Positions 8,939-57,196 of a stretch of 64,000 nt of DNA are shown here, piece after piece; position 1 is the first letter of the stretch, and each line of letters opens with the position of its first letter. A program made the translations under genes and the position numbers. The stretch spans positions 2,414,168 through 2,478,167 of the forward strand of contig LT827128.1 in NCBI GenBank assembly GCA_900170005.1. Reading direction: 5' to 3'. Source of the DNA: Gordonibacter massiliensis (ex Traore et al. 2017). GTDB lineage: Bacteria > Actinomycetota > Coriobacteriia > Coriobacteriales > Eggerthellaceae. The notes below the pieces were generated by a model, which saw only the letters and a program-made list of their open reading frames with translations, ran no database searches and was not told the DNA's origin.

Positions 8939-9649
8939 TTACTGCTGGACTTTGGTCGGATCTTCGAAGCGGTAGCCCACGCCGTGCACGGTGTGCAGCC
9001 ACTTCGGGCTGCGCGGGTTGTCGCCGATCTTCGCGCGCAGGTTCTTCACGTGGCTGTCGATGGTGCGCTCGTAGCCCTCGAAGTCGTAGCCGAGCACCTT
9101 CTCCACCAGCTCCATGCGCGAGTACACGCGGCCCGGATAACGGGACAGCGTGGTGAGCAGCTTGAACTCGCTGGCCGTGAGGTCGATCTCCTCGCCGTTC
9201 ACCAGCACCTTGTGGCCCGACACGTCGATGGTGAGCTCGCCGAACTCCAGCACTTCGCGCTGCGGCTCGGAATCGGCGTGCACGCGGCGCAGCAGCGCGC
9301 GGGCGCGGGCCACCAGCTCGCGGGGGCTGAAGGGCTTCACCAGGTAGTCGTCGGCACCCAGCTCCAGGCCGATGATGCGGTCCTCCACCTCGCCCTTGGC
9401 CGTGAGCATGATGATGGGCACGTCGGAGTTGTCGCGGATGGCGCGGCAAACGCGCTCGCCCGGCACACGGGGCAGCATCAGGTCGAGGATGACCAGGTCG
9501 AAATGGTGCTTCGAGAACTCTTCGAGCGCTTCCTGGCCGTCGCCGACCGCCGTGACCCAGTAGTTCTCGCGCTCAAGATAGGCCGTCACCGCGTCGCGGA
9601 TGGCCTTTTCGTCTTCAACAAGCAGTATACGTCGCGTTTCGTTGCTCAT
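8939..9649 (-). CDS. OmpR/PhoB-family response regulator
   Basis: The 236-residue protein has an N-terminal receiver domain, with acidic pocket VEDE at 11-14, phospho-acceptor Asp56 in VILDLMLP and the conserved KPFSPRE lysine. A C-terminal winged helix follows (LTASEFKLLTTLSRYPGRVY, then RTIDSHVKNLRAKIGD and VHGVGYRFE). ATG 9649 is favoured over a GTG at 9658, since AGGTGG sits 5 bp before it. It is the first gene of the pair with the histidine kinase. Proteins of this family usually bind direct repeats of about 10-11 bp. The targets here are unknown. Confidence 0.95.
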   Translation of the reverse strand: MSNETRRILLVEDEKAIRDAVTAYLERENYWVTAVGDGQEALEEFSKHHFDLVILDLMLPRVPGERVCRAIRDNSDVPIIMLTAKGEVEDRIIGLELGADDYLVKPFSPRELVARARALLRRVHADSEPQREVLEFGELTIDVSGHKVLVNGEEIDLTASEFKLLTTLSRYPGRVYSRMELVEKVLGYDFEGYERTIDSHVKNLRAKIGDNPRSPKWLHTVHGVGYRFEDPTKVQQ

Positions 9650-9742
9650 GGATACCACCTCTGGTCGTTACCGGCTCGGATCACGCCCGGACGCGTATCC
9701 CGTACGCACCCAGTTCCGAGCGTCTAGGTCGTGTTTGCGTTT

Positions 9743-15759: not shown

Positions 15760-17535
15760 TCACAGGTCTTTCGCCTTCCGCCTTGCCCCTGGGAGCGCCA
15801 TAAAAGCGAGCGCGACGCCGGCTGTCCCTGCGAGCGCAAGTCCCTCGAACATACCGGCGTCTCCTGTTCGAGCAAGCGTTTGCCGAGAAGGGGTATCGGA
15901 ATTGGGCGCAGGTGCCGGGATGTCAAGGGGCACGAAGCGGGCATACAGCGTCATGGCATCGCTGCACGTGTTGCTGAAATCCCAGACGGTATCGAAACTA
16001 CTGGTGGTATACCAGTTGTCGAAGGCATAGCCGTCCACGTGAGGGTCGGGAGCGGGCTTGGTTACGGCTGTATTCCGTTCAATGGTCACATCGCCAGGAG
16101 GATTCGTGCAGGTAAGACCTTGGCTTGCGGTATCGAACGATATGGTGATGTCGCGACTTATGCCATCTCCTCCCCAGTTCACCGCGATATAGGCACGGTC
16201 CGAAAAGCAATCAGCGCCGGTAAAGGTGCCCCGAGCCGTAGTGGGAACATAGTCGGGATCCCCGATAATGCCTTGCGCTAAGCGACTCTGCGTGGGGGTT
16301 GTTGAAGCGAGCTTTTGAAAGGCGCCCTCGAACATTCCCGTTTGATTAAGAACGGAAGAGTCAAACCGAGGAAACGCAAACACCTCGTTTACCTGAAAGC
16401 TCGGGCCTCCAGCCCGACTGAACATGTTGCTCGCGAAGTTGTCGCCTACGCTGCCAAGGTTTTGGGGGAGGTTGAATGCGTTGTTCATGGTGAAGGCGTA
16501 TCCGGAACAGCCTTCAAACATATTGCTCGCGAAGTTGTCGCCCGCGTTGGCCAGATTTTGGGGGAGGTTGAAGACGCCGTTCATGGTGAAGGCGTCGCCT
16601 GAGCAGCCAGCAAACATGTTGCCTGCAAAGTTGTCGCCTACGCTGGTGAGGTTTTGGGGGAGGTTGAAGACGCTGCCCATAGTGAGGGCTTCACAACCAG
16701 AAAACATGTCGCTCGCAAAGTTGTCGCCTACGGCGGTAATGCTGTTCCACTCATCGCTGAACGTGAAATCGGCTCCCATGGTGAGGTTGCGACAACGGCT
16801 AAACGTGTACCTCCATTCATCATGAGGAACGGTTGAAGCAGCGACGTCCCTCGTCATGGAGGGAGTAAGGGGGCTTTCCACGTCGTACATTTTGTCTCTG
16901 TTTGCTTGGGCATTTGCACCTTCGTCATCCGTAGAAAAGCCAAACGCGGCAAGCCAGGCTGCTCTATTAGTAGAGCCGTAAGGAGTGATGGTAATACGGT
17001 AGATGCCCGGCCCACCATAGGTGTGGCTGATACCGGCGGAGGTGCTGGAACCATTTGCGTGCTGCATAGAATTGTCTCCCCAGCGGACCTCCCAAGAATA
17101 TGGTTGTCCAAGTCCGTCTCCCGAAGTAGGAATGGAGAAGGATAAGTCATCAGCAGTCACTTTTATCCGGAATATAAATACTTCAGTGGCACGTGGTGCA
17201 GTTACCTGAAGAGCAGTGTTCGTTTGTTGTTGGACAGCGGCGAAAGCGTCAGCGGCGCTATCCTCATTTCGCGTGCTCGCAAACTCAAGGTTATCAAGCA
17301 CTTCTTGCTCTTGTGCCGAAACGCCCTTTTCATCACGACGTTCTTCGGTATCCCCTACGACGCTACTTACGTTGTCAAAAGAAGGGCCTGATTCTTGCGC
17401 ATGCGCTACGGCAGGAAAGCCCGTAAGCATAAGCAGGGCAGTCAACAACAAAGGGAGAAAGGGAACCTCAAGGTTTTTTCTTTTGGCAAATATCGAAGAA
17501 CGCGAATCGACTTTGCAGAAAGTTTTATGAAACAT
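15760..17535 (-). CDS. BspA-like repeat surface protein with LARTG sorting signal
   Basis: The 591-residue protein has a signal peptide (about residues 1-47, LPLLLTALLMLTGFPAVAHA). An N-terminal domain of about 170 residues follows, including a PKD-like stretch (SWEVRWGDNSMQH). Next come four copies of a 30-32-residue leucine-rich or BspA-type unit with the signature VGDNFASNMFxGC and FNLPQNL. A bacterial repeat like InlB B repeats comes next (DGYAFDNWYTTSSFDTVWDF). The tail LARTG, a hydrophobic helix and ARRKAKDL is a sortase substrate signal. It is probably cell-wall-anchored and may bind host or bacterial ligands. It lies in an AT-richer patch, which suggests transfer. The ATG has GAAAGGG upstream. 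Confidence 0.85.
   Translation of the reverse strand: MFHKTFCKVDSRSSIFAKRKNLEVPFLPLLLTALLMLTGFPAVAHAQESGPSFDNVSSVVGDTEERRDEKGVSAQEQEVLDNLEFASTRNEDSAADAFAAVQQQTNTALQVTAPRATEVFIFRIKVTADDLSFSIPTSGDGLGQPYSWEVRWGDNSMQHANGSSTSAGISHTYGGPGIYRITITPYGSTNRAAWLAAFGFSTDDEGANAQANRDKMYDVESPLTPSMTRDVAASTVPHDEWRYTFSRCRNLTMGADFTFSDEWNSITAVGDNFASDMFSGCEALTMGSVFNLPQNLTSVGDNFAGNMFAGCSGDAFTMNGVFNLPQNLANAGDNFASNMFEGCSGYAFTMNNAFNLPQNLGSVGDNFASNMFSRAGGPSFQVNEVFAFPRFDSSVLNQTGMFEGAFQKLASTTPTQSRLAQGIIGDPDYVPTTARGTFTGADCFSDRAYIAVNWGGDGISRDITISFDTASQGLTCTNPPGDVTIERNTAVTKPAPDPHVDGYAFDNWYTTSSFDTVWDFSNTCSDAMTLYARFVPLDIPAPAPNSDTPSRQTLARTGDAGMFEGLALAGTAGVALAFMALPGARRKAKDL
16423..16746 (-). repeat. Tandem coding repeats in the surface protein
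   Basis: Units containing GTTGTCGCCT(A/C) recur at 16439, 16535, 16631 and 16721, that is with periods of 96, 96 and 90 bp. They encode 32-, 32- and 30-residue repeats. The copies are similar enough that slippage or recombination could change their number. Confidence 0.85.
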
Positions 17536-24158: not shown

Positions 24159-24267
24159 GCAACGTTCCCAACGAAACCCGGCAAACAAAGGCTCGTGCAA
24201 CGTGACGAGAACGTAAGCGAAAGCACAGGGGCCTGCAAGGTTGACGCAAGGTGCGGCAGGTAAGGTG
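24159..24267 (+). promoter_or_regulatory. Imperfect 11-bp-spaced repeats upstream of the 32-codon gene
   Basis: GCAAGGTTGAC and GCAAGGTGCGG start 11 bp apart at 24235 and 24246. GCAACGT and GAACGT units also recur at 24197 and 24208, and GCAA units at 24159 and 24181. The motif resembles the phased arrays upstream of the other two small genes but is less regular. It may be a regulator site or a promoter element. Confidence 0.4.
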
Positions 24268-24304: not shown

Positions 24305-24403
24305 ATGAAAAAGATGTTCGTGACCATGGCGACGCTGGCCGCCATGGGAGGCCTGTTCGTCTACGTCGCCCTGCAAGCGCCGCGCTTGGAAAAGGTCCGC
24401 TAG
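24305..24403 (+). CDS. 32-residue single-span membrane peptide
   Basis: Too short for routine gene finding, but it has a strong ribosome site: GAAAGGAG six bases before ATG 24305. The peptide begins MKKMFVTMATLAAMGGLF, continues as one hydrophobic helix to about residue 23, and ends with a charged tail (APRLEKVR). The shape recalls tiny actinobacterial membrane proteins with a short basic C-terminus, such as those in the DUF6893 group, but I cannot confirm membership. It is preceded by GCAAGGT repeats like those of the two other small-peptide loci. Function unknown. Confidence 0.7.
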   Translation: MKKMFVTMATLAAMGGLFVYVALQAPRLEKVR

Positions 24404-26632: not shown

Positions 26633-26731
26633 GCAAGGTTCGGGCGGCGCCCGTACAAGACGGCGTTAAGGTTCTCGCGGCGAATACGCAAGAAACGTGC
26701 AAGGTTGGGACGGTTTTATTACGGCTCCATG
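26633..26731 (+). promoter_or_regulatory. Phased 11-bp direct-repeat array, locus A
   Basis: Nine consecutive 11-bp units start at 26633, 26644, 26655, and so on. They are GCAAGGTTCGG, GCGGCGCCCGT, ACAAGACGGCG, TTAAGGTTCTC, GCGGCGAATAC, GCAAGAAACGT, GCAAGGTTGGG, ACGGTTTTATT and ACGGCTCCATG. Most begin RCRRG. The 11-bp spacing keeps all sites on one face of the helix, as with sites for OmpR-family regulators. A very similar array lies at 56790-56888. The binding protein is not known. Confidence 0.65.
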
Positions 26732-26758
26732 GCAATGAATCGGTAAGGAGCAACGCCC

Positions 26759-26764
26759 TATACT
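26759..26764 (+). promoter_or_regulatory. -10 box of locus A peptide gene
   Basis: TATACT lies 72 bp before the start codon with only a poor -35 match near 26736, as expected if activation depends on a protein bound to the upstream array. The predicted leader is about 65 bases and contains CCTCTCCC, which could pair with the AAGGAGG ribosome site. Confidence 0.45.
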
Positions 26765-26835
26765 GCCAAGCAGGGATCGCAAGGCGGCATGGTACCTCTC
26801 CCTCTCACTATTCTAGATAAAAGGAGGTGATGACC

Positions 26836-26961
26836 ATGCCCGTTTTGGAGTTTTTGGTGTTGGCGACTGTGCTCTTGGAGCTTGCTTCTCGTATCATCGA
26901 GTTGATCGTGGTGATAAAAGACGCGCTCCTAACCCACCGGGGAAAGGAGCGCCACCCATAA
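26836..26961 (+). CDS. 41-residue hydrophobic peptide, candidate type I toxin (locus A)
   Basis: The ATG at 26836 follows AAGGAGG by eight bases. The peptide starts MPVLEFLVLATVLLELA, continues as a single hydrophobic helix to about residue 27, and ends with a basic tail (THRGKERHP). Its size, charge pattern and strong ribosome site match small membrane toxins such as the Fst and TxpA/BsrG types, but the sequence is not one I recognise. A conserved hairpin and a convergent antisense promoter follow, and the same arrangement occurs at 56989. It could also be a regulatory membrane peptide. Confidence 0.7.
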   Translation: MPVLEFLVLATVLLELASRIIELIVVIKDALLTHRGKERHP

Positions 26962-27026: not shown

Positions 27027-27056
27027 ATTGTAGCAGATTCCTTCGGGCTATGCCAC
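27027..27056 (-). promoter_or_regulatory. Antisense promoter, locus A
   Basis: On the minus strand GTGGCA (27051-27056) and TACAAT (27027-27032) are 18 bp apart, with TGC before the -10 box. Exactly the same geometry occurs in locus B. Confidence 0.65.
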
Positions 27057-56612: not shown

Positions 56613-56789
56613 GGGCATTGCCTCCCTTCACGCGCCGCCCCTCGAAACGGCGCTTCTCTGCTTACGACCAAGTATAGCGAAGATGAAGGGCTTGTTGAGG
56701 CCAACATAGAACGTCGACCACCTCGGCGTTGTGGCAACACCCTTCCCACCTGGCGAAAAGAAAATCCGTCGGAGATGCGCCGGATGCGC

Positions 56790-56888
56790 GCAAAGTTTAT
56801 GCAAGGTCGAGACGGTCGAGACGTTAGATTCTTGCAAGGTCGACGCGGTCCCGCGACGGCCGGATTACGGTCGCCAAGCAAGGTTGCG
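56790..56888 (+). promoter_or_regulatory. Phased 11-bp direct-repeat array, locus B
   Basis: Nine consecutive 11-bp units start at 56790 and end at 56888: GCAAAGTTTAT, GCAAGGTCGAG, ACGGTCGAGAC, GTTAGATTCTT, GCAAGGTCGAC, GCGGTCCCGCG, ACGGCCGGATT, ACGGTCGCCAA and GCAAGGTTGCG. Eight of nine begin RCRRx, and the four GCAA(A/G)GT units are the clearest. A similar array precedes locus A. The 11-bp spacing suggests cooperative binding of one regulator along one face of DNA. Confidence 0.65.
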
Positions 56889-56988
56889 GAGGTAGGATAG
56901 GAACCACGGAGCGCAAAGGCGGCGCGGTGCCACACCCCTTCCCACCCATGTCCCCTCTTGAAGGGCCTTGCGGAGGGAGGTGGATACC

Positions 56989-57099
56989 ATGACCGATTTG
57001 GTTTTGATTTCGGCGGTGCTTCAGCTGATAGCCAGTGCGGTGTACCTTGCCGCGGTAATACTGGAGCGGCTCCCGGTCCGCAAGGACAGGGAGCCGTAA
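56989..57099 (+). CDS. 36-residue hydrophobic peptide, candidate type I toxin (locus B)
   Basis: ATG 56989 follows GGGAGG with an eight- to nine-base gap. The peptide begins MTDLVLISAVLQLIASAVYL, with a single hydrophobic helix to about residue 25, and ends with a charged tail (RLPVRKDREP). Its sequence differs from the 41-residue peptide of locus A, but the ribosome site, the ACCATG context, the downstream CCAAACCGCC...GGGGAGTTA.CAGCTCCC block and the antisense promoter are shared. The pair therefore looks paralogous. Upstream CCCCTC near 56953 could pair with the ribosome site. Toxin function is inferred. Confidence 0.7.
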   Translation: MTDLVLISAVLQLIASAVYLAAVILERLPVRKDREP

Positions 57100-57160
57100 C
57101 AAAGACCAAACCGCCTAGGCGATTCGAGGGCCGTGGGGAGTTACCAGCTCCCTGCGGTCC
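57100..57160 (-). ncRNA. Predicted antisense RNA, locus B
   Basis: A minus-strand transcript would start near 57160 from the promoter at 57167-57196. Its first part forms the GGGAGCTGGTAACTCCC hairpin and it then runs through CGCCTAGGCG towards the 3' end of the 36-codon gene. The end point is unknown. The evidence is the promoter and conservation with locus A. Confidence 0.45.
57131..57157 (+). other. Conserved hairpin downstream of the locus B gene
   Basis: The CCGTGGGGAG / CTCCCTGCGG stem with the loop TTACCAG (mismatched in the middle) lies 31 bp after the stop codon. The same block occurs after the locus A gene at 26990-27016 (GTGGGGAGTTAGCAGCTCCC). It may act as a terminator or as the antisense pairing region. 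Confidence 0.6.
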
Positions 57161-57166
57161 GCCTGC

Positions 57167-57196
57167 ATTATAGCAAACACGGCCGCTTCATGCCAC
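57167..57196 (-). promoter_or_regulatory. Antisense promoter, locus B
   Basis: GTGGCA (57191-57196) and perfect TATAAT (57167-57172) are 18 bp apart on the minus strand, with TGC before the -10 box. The -35/-10 distance and both flanking bases match locus A exactly. Confidence 0.75.

Follow-up and report, generated by a model that had tools for sequence, protein, structure and literature searches.

The array of nine 11-bp direct-repeat units that stands in front of a small hydrophobic peptide gene at 56790 is very probably the operator of a competence-type promoter and a member of a natural-competence regulon. This reading is preferred because arrays of the same kind precede transformation operons of this genome as well as the homologous genes in a genome of a second genus (G025), where the repeat unit is a different one. 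The fuller reading, in which such a competence regulon is bound by a SARP-type regulator, was considered likely, by roughly two chances to one.

The window, i.e., the whole 64-kb stretch of DNA that was analysed, comprises bases 2414168-2478167 of a 3.95-Mb one-contig genome. Arrays were scored using a held-out unit profile built on seven arrays that lie outside the window and are not among the paralogous peptide loci, the score being the sum over nine units at 11-bp steps, and both strands were scanned. The two top scores in the window were 32.3 at 26633 and 22.1 at 56790, and the next best on either strand was 6.8. Wrong steps (9, 10, 12, and 13 bp) reached at most 7.8 to 12.8 on the + strand. 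The preliminary description had claimed a nine-unit array at 56790-56888 as an example of long, helically phased direct-repeat operators and had proposed a shuffled-sequence control and a genome-wide motif search as checks. The array was confirmed to the base (Table 1), with its score matched by none of 2000 Markov resamples drawn from the same stretch, and the claim of long, helically phased operators is supported. Neither outcome that would have spoken against the 56790 array, i.e., equal scores in shuffled sequence or a lack of further copies in the genome, was seen.

Split every 11 bp, 56790-56888 resolves into nine heptamers, each with 4 nt behind it; the last heptamer is GCAAGGT, and TAGGAT comes 8 bp after it. 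A tenth unit (GCCGGAT) lies directly upstream at 56779. Given that the array mixes unit types (GCAAGGT, ACGGTCG, GCGGTCC, and GTTAGAT), plain autocorrelation of the window did not single it out; the top autocorrelation scores lay elsewhere and the unit profile was needed. The array at 26633, which was not named in the preliminary description, also precedes a small-peptide gene (26830-26961). The shorter version that had been proposed before the gene at 24305 has two well-matching units and, 8 bp on, a -10, but its signal was weak, with the 3-unit score equalled in 52/1000 resamples and the 9-unit score in 208/1000. The association of arrays with small-peptide genes therefore holds for 56790, 26633, and weakly 24235, but it is too narrow, since arrays also precede transformation and toxin-antitoxin operons. 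An Rfam scan of the window returned two tRNAs only. Additionally, a 96-bp tandem repeat (3.3 copies, 79% matches) was observed inside an open frame at window positions 16421-16732.

Table 1. Array promoters, peptide genes, predicted antisense elements, and the candidate regulator (window positions unless marked as genome)
Feature	Position	Strand	Basis or remark
Borderline short version: GCAAGGT twice, then TAAGGT after 8 bp	24235..24266	+	52/1000 resamples
32-aa peptide gene behind short version	24305..24403	+	sequence
Second array, 11 units spanned, top scorer of the window	26633..26749	+	score 32.3; 0/1000 resamples
Predicted -10 hexamer TATACT	26759..26764	+	9 bp past last heptamer GTAAGGA
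43-aa hydrophobic peptide gene (MTMPVLEF...)	26830..26961	+	sequence
Predicted antisense -10 TACAAT, second peptide locus	27027..27032	-	conservation
Array, nine 11-bp direct-repeat units	56790..56888	+	profile score 22.1; resampling
Predicted -10 hexamer TAGGAT	56893..56898	+	8 bp past last heptamer GCAAGGT (56878-56884)
36-aa hydrophobic peptide gene (MTDLVLIS...)	56989..57099	+	sequence; homologs behind arrays in two congeners
Inferred antisense RNA with conserved hairpin, reaching peptide mRNA 3' end	57100..57160	-	conservation; approximate ends
Predicted antisense -10 TATAAT	57167..57172	-	-35-like TGGCAT 17 bp upstream at 57190-57195; conserved at 11 loci
SARP-type protein (P0001), 872 aa	genome 1605059-1607674	-	sole BTAD match in genome

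Across the whole genome, the pattern GCAAGGT-N4-GCAAGGT with up to two mismatches gave 61 matches versus 31 for the reversed pattern, and eight of the matches were exact. A sequence-only array model trained on 12 arrays of this genome yielded 15 matches at E<1e-10, namely the 12 training sequences and three new ones, which stand before recA, comEA-comEC, and the Tad operon. When up to two 1-bp shifts of register are tolerated, these 15 strong arrays are between 7 and 15 units long. Six of them precede transformation operons (comEA-comEC, comF, yraN-(ComM-like ORF)-dprA, rpsF-ssb, recA-recX, and the Tad/Flp pilus), three precede type II toxin-antitoxin pairs (HigBA-type with a Gp49 toxin and HTH partner twice, BrnT and a partner once), four precede small-peptide genes, and the remaining two stand before a secreted SpaA-like protein and a DUF559 protein. 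Downstream genes were assigned using Pfam for part of the set; recA, recX, rny, rpsF, holA, the ComM-like ORF, CpaE, the SpaA-like, NnrD-like, and AbiE-like genes, the extra HigA-like genes, topA, and secA were named by eye. Pfam matches for CpaE fall below the cut-off, and so does the match of the BrnT partner to CopG_antitoxin. The overlap of the arrays with transformation operons corresponds to P values of 1.0e-10 to 1.6e-12, assuming 8 operons and 1000-2000 transcription units, for a set picked after the fact.

Several further properties of the arrays were observed. A clear -10 is absent from the additional arrays L005, L006, L008, L012, L015, and L017, and three of these (L012, L015, and L017) have a common upstream stretch (GCGTAGGCGTAAAGGATTTC-like), as if they were part of a dispersed element. 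The register shifts by 1 bp two to four units before the promoter in L010, L013, L020, L025, L082, and L083, so that the distal units of such arrays are lost to a fixed 11-bp comb. The heptamer TGACCTG precedes the first array unit by one or a few units at L206, L209, L214, and L216 in G025 and at L001 and L010 in this genome; it is exact at 4 of 18 G025 arrays, with near variants at several more, and is perhaps a second site. Palindromes (e.g., GTATATAACATAGATGTTATATAC in L020) were seen by eye between the array promoter and the toxin-antitoxin genes at L001, L013, L020, L205, L213, and L219. These are probably antitoxin operators, and the toxin-antitoxin genes may therefore be under dual control. 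In both genera an array-driven HigBA-type pair lies directly before a topoisomerase-like gene (L093 in this genome, L213 in G025).

When the GCAAGGT model was run on 196 genomes of the class (E<=0.001), it matched this genus only, with 18 matches here and 15 and 16 in two congeners. Homologs of this genome's array genes were encoded at 17 of the 20 congener array loci fetched; the other three are L097, L100, and the unassigned L109. The idea of a genus-only feature was dropped once the comF upstreams of other genera gave a different unit. In those other genera of the family, the 11-bp phase upstream of comF is kept and the unit is GCTGGAT/GCTTGAT. Of 28 family comF loci (3 of them from this genus; 2 of an initial 30 dropped as too short), 17 had lag 11 ranked in the top three of 30 lags, and the mean peaked at 11, 22, and 33. 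With up to two mismatches, GCTGGAT-N4-GCTGGAT gave 111, 34, 48, and 58 matches in G025, G061, G009, and G116, respectively, versus 9, 3, 8, and 7 for the reversed pattern.

Eighteen G025 arrays were read among the matches listed, and 12 of them had homologs of this genome's array genes behind them, six being transformation operons. The shared targets were comEA-comEC, recA, yraN-dprA, comF, rpsF-ssb, Tad, DUF559, SpaA-like, a HigB, BrnT, an NnrD-like gene, and a small toxin-like pair, the last two of which have arrays outside the 15 strong ones in the own genome. Three further G025 arrays have HTH-antitoxin or AbiE-like genes downstream, as judged by eye, and the last three were left unassigned. 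The array architecture and its targets are preserved while the unit sequence drifts between genera. Upstream of comEA, the excess was at least 0.15 at 4 of 11 family loci; at the other seven it was 0.047-0.120 with no clear long array, and the highest of these looks like a hairpin by eye. Outside the family, arrays were not found in the upstreams of 19 comF and nine comEA loci: the 11-bp phase was absent from all 19 comF upstreams from other families or orders (in the four inspected, the upstream reads as coding), and the nine comEA upstreams from other families held no long array (excess <=0.065).

Promoter geometry was determined as the distance from the last heptamer to a TANNNT hexamer, with 4-12 bp allowed. 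After filtering, 12 arrays of this genome (from 24 loci scanned) and 10 congener arrays (from 20 loci scanned) were left, and all of them had a spacing of 8 bp. For G025, a spacing of 8 bp was found in 10 of 14 pairs and 9 bp in two arrays, and 5 of the 18 arrays had no pair. SARP sites have been described as direct repeats at 11 or 22 bp with the 3' repeat 8 bp from the -10, on which protomers sit side by side, one per 11-bp repeat, and overlap the -35 (PMC10936776). SARP heptamers are separated by 4-nt spacers and bound cooperatively, the PimR heptamer being CGGCAAG (PMC5930380). The arrays mostly follow the published rule of 11-bp direct repeats with the 3' repeat 8 bp from the -10; 26633, at 9 bp, is among the exceptions.

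Given that the 11-bp step and the 8-bp spacing to the -10 are the published SARP geometry and that the genome encodes one BTAD protein, the 872-aa SARP-type protein is the best candidate for the binder and probably occupies the arrays. Its BTAD domain (PF03704, 52.8 bits, cut-off 22.1) covers residues 764-864 and is preceded by an OmpR-type winged helix, recognised from a profile match of residues 614-693 to EmbR. The profile of the protein's family matches both EmbR and AfsR, and a fold search with the structure model (mean pLDDT 85, pTM 0.65) returned EmbR and AfsR chains at TM 0.74-0.76 by AfsR chain length; a maltose regulator system entry was ranked 17 with a low score in the same search. 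Whereas large members like AfsR have the SARP domain at the N-terminus, here it lies at the C-terminal end (about residues 614-866 of 872), and the protein was therefore labelled "SARP-type, inverted domain order". A Walker-A-like APEGFGKS was noted by eye in the N-terminal part, and secA lies immediately downstream of the gene. The closest named relatives among the matches listed were from Gordonibacter sp. 28C (89%) and G. pamelaeae (86%), and the genus was accordingly taken to be Gordonibacter.

Matches to the SARP-type protein were found in 176 of the 196 genomes of the class; they cover most of the protein within the family and mainly its C-terminal 250 residues elsewhere. The protein occurs together with ComF and ComEC in 45 of 46 family genomes, and the 46th (G192) is without all three. 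Counting against its assignment as the binder, 19 genomes outside the family keep ComEC without a SARP match, and no array lies near the SARP gene itself, so autoregulation through an array is unsupported and was discarded. In distant families, some 12 kb separates the SARP gene from comF, which is on the same strand (L225-L228 in G080, G013, G169, and G028). No weight was put on this linkage, because in two of the four regions read (L225 and L228) the SARP gene is followed by a SecA-like gene and the gene order may be no more than an old neighbourhood. The SARP gene of G025 has a BrnT-like gene just behind it (L205:6494-6796) and, about 3 kb in front, an array accompanied by an HTH-antitoxin-like gene.

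An OmpR-like or other direct-repeat-binding protein had been suggested in the preliminary description, with the window's own OmpR-family response regulator (8939-9658) as the protein to compare. An OmpR-type winged helix is indeed the best fit, but that response regulator is a poor candidate and was rejected: it is 98-100% identical in 10/10 genomes of six genera, a striking constraint, although the repeat unit changes between genera, and a binder near-invariant in this way, with no co-change of site and DNA-binding domain, is unlikely. Among the 25 matches listed, it passes no NCBIfam equivalog cut-off. In a wider form of the same idea, the regulon would be unchanged and its arrays would be occupied by phosphorylated dimers of some OmpR/PhoB-class response regulator, sitting on direct repeats. 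Regulators of this class likewise recognise direct repeats of about 11 bp, this genome encodes 20 OmpR-type proteins (the PF00486 search output listing them does not contain the SARP-type protein) and one of them was compared across genera, and the SARP link is one of geometry and distribution only. This alternative was nevertheless judged unlikely, at about one chance in five, since the arrangement of heptamer, 8 bp, and -10 is the one printed for SARPs (PMC10936776) and the one regulator compared did not vary with the unit.

The competence reading itself draws on a promoter signal shared by genes for DNA uptake and processing (comEA-comEC, comF, the dprA operon, ssb, and recA), as is characteristic of a regulon. 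Counting against the regulon and its SARP binder, 9 of the 15 strong arrays are not before transformation genes, and no array was found near the pilB/pilT-like operon (2655359-2657378), which encodes the more usual kind of DNA-uptake pilus. The same holds for the lack of long arrays at the comEA and comF loci outside the family, for the lack of clear ones at 7 of 11 family comEA loci, and for the C-terminal place of the SARP domain. The Tad operon carries an array, and in the actinobacterium Micrococcus luteus transformation has been described as requiring tad clusters (PMC8467076). It is improbable that the regulon answers DNA damage or replication stress with the DNA uptake genes as passengers: recA-recX, ssb, and dnaB are behind arrays, toxin-antitoxin operons are among the targets, and in G025 an NnrD-like gene lies behind an array with ligA further down, but the targets in both genera include comEA-comEC, comF, dprA, and the Tad operon. 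Still harder to credit is a regulon of toxin-antitoxin and peptide genes to which the transformation operons were added later or by chance proximity. It is true that toxin-antitoxin or peptide genes follow seven of the 15 strong arrays and that G025 has more such genes, but the transformation operons are the ones that recur in both genera, whereas the HigB, BrnT, and AbiE-like targets vary. Chance, or a composition artefact of GC-rich intergenic DNA, would fit the unremarkable autocorrelation at 56790 but is contradicted by the held-out profile, the reversed-pattern controls, and the conservation of targets, and can be practically dismissed.

Under the competence-regulon reading, the activator would consist of a regulatory N-terminal part and a C-terminal SARP domain, and its monomers would bind one unit each on nearly one helix face while touching their neighbours; a cooperative filament on the arrays is plausible. 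In place of a -35 contact, RNA polymerase would be recruited by the two promoter-proximal protomers, in the manner of AfsR at afsS. With so many units upstream, binding would be steeply cooperative, and the whole regulon could thereby be turned on together at a competence signal. At the peptide loci, the array promoter would drive a membrane peptide, and the 3' end of its mRNA would meet a convergent antisense RNA. More speculatively, and at somewhat less than even odds, a SARP-type protein with an ATPase-like N-terminal part, kept in most Coriobacteriia, may be the master activator of natural transformation, which in Eggerthellaceae would assemble on 9 to 15 units for all-or-none competence and would have recruited antisense-controlled peptide toxins and several type II toxin-antitoxin modules, coupling DNA uptake to controlled growth arrest.

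The 36-aa and 43-aa peptides and their relatives were judged hydrophobic by composition, as are the small peptides of type I toxin-antitoxin systems. No Pfam match was obtained for the 36-aa or 32-aa peptide and no NCBIfam match for the 43-aa peptide. A convergent element was found at 11/11 peptide loci in three genomes. It comprises a hairpin and an extended -10, which reads TATAAT at eight of these loci, and most copies also have a TGGCA-like -35; at the congener loci L097 and L100, this antisense element is present with a related peptide. By script, the peptide ORF stops 31-35 nt before the hairpin at 9 of 11 loci, the exceptions being L004 (no peptide ORF) and L108 (another ORF picked, though a homolog exists there). 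Compared with shuffled sequences, the inferred antisense RNA folds only moderately better (z -2.2 for 57078-57160). On these features, we lean slightly toward antisense-controlled toxin peptides.

The molecular basis of competence in Actinobacteria has been called little known (PMC8467076). Eggerthella and Gordonibacter have been transformed by electroporation, and the word "competence" is absent from the text describing this (PMC9734109). Among the matches listed from the open-access literature, no paper was found on natural competence in Coriobacteriia or on a SARP tied to competence. Arrays before DNA uptake and recombination genes and toxin-antitoxin genes would point to an unrecognised master switch for natural transformation in Gordonibacter/Eggerthella relatives. 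If the reading is true, there would be one gene to turn on for DNA uptake by genetically difficult gut bacteria, a route of gene exchange among drug-metabolising gut species would be indicated, and the role of SARPs would be widened beyond antibiotic control. For studying how regulators assemble on DNA, the arrays would also provide operators far longer than those published for SARPs, which have two or three repeats.

Type I toxin-antitoxin loci combine a small hydrophobic peptide gene with a convergent antisense RNA overlapping its 3' end. The peptide loci resemble them in the small hydrophobic peptide, the convergent antisense promoter-like element, and the predicted 3' overlap, as read from the sequence, and differ in having no sequence family match (Pfam, NCBIfam, and Rfam) and an array on the peptide promoter. 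Competence regulons are run by regulators such as ComK, ComX, or Sxy/CRP. As in those regulons, one promoter signal covers comEA, comEC, comF, dprA, ssb, and recA; the promoter type and candidate regulator are different here, and an array is carried by the Tad pilus operon but not by the pilB/pilT-like operon. Competence regulators are varied (PMC8467076). A Tad pilus is tied to transformation in M. luteus, where regulation has been called little known and no array is reported in the available part of the account (PMC8467076).

The arrays resemble Streptomyces SARP/AfsR operators in the heptamer plus 4 nt, the 11-bp direct repeats, and the 8 bp to the -10, and they have GCAAG in common with the PimR heptamer (PMC10936776, PMC5930380). 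In contrast to the two to three units described there, the arrays have 7-15, and unlike Streptomyces SARPs acting on antibiotic clusters, the candidate here would serve a genome-wide regulon including transformation genes (PMC10936776, PMC5930380). The candidate also carries its SARP domain at the C-terminus, whereas that of AfsR is N-terminal. Finally, Haemophilus influenzae has a competence-regulated toxin-antitoxin operon, toxTA, which likewise places a toxin-antitoxin operon under a competence-type promoter; unlike toxTA, the present case involves several modules in one genome, i.e., HigBA-type twice, BrnTA, and the peptide loci (PMC6957337).
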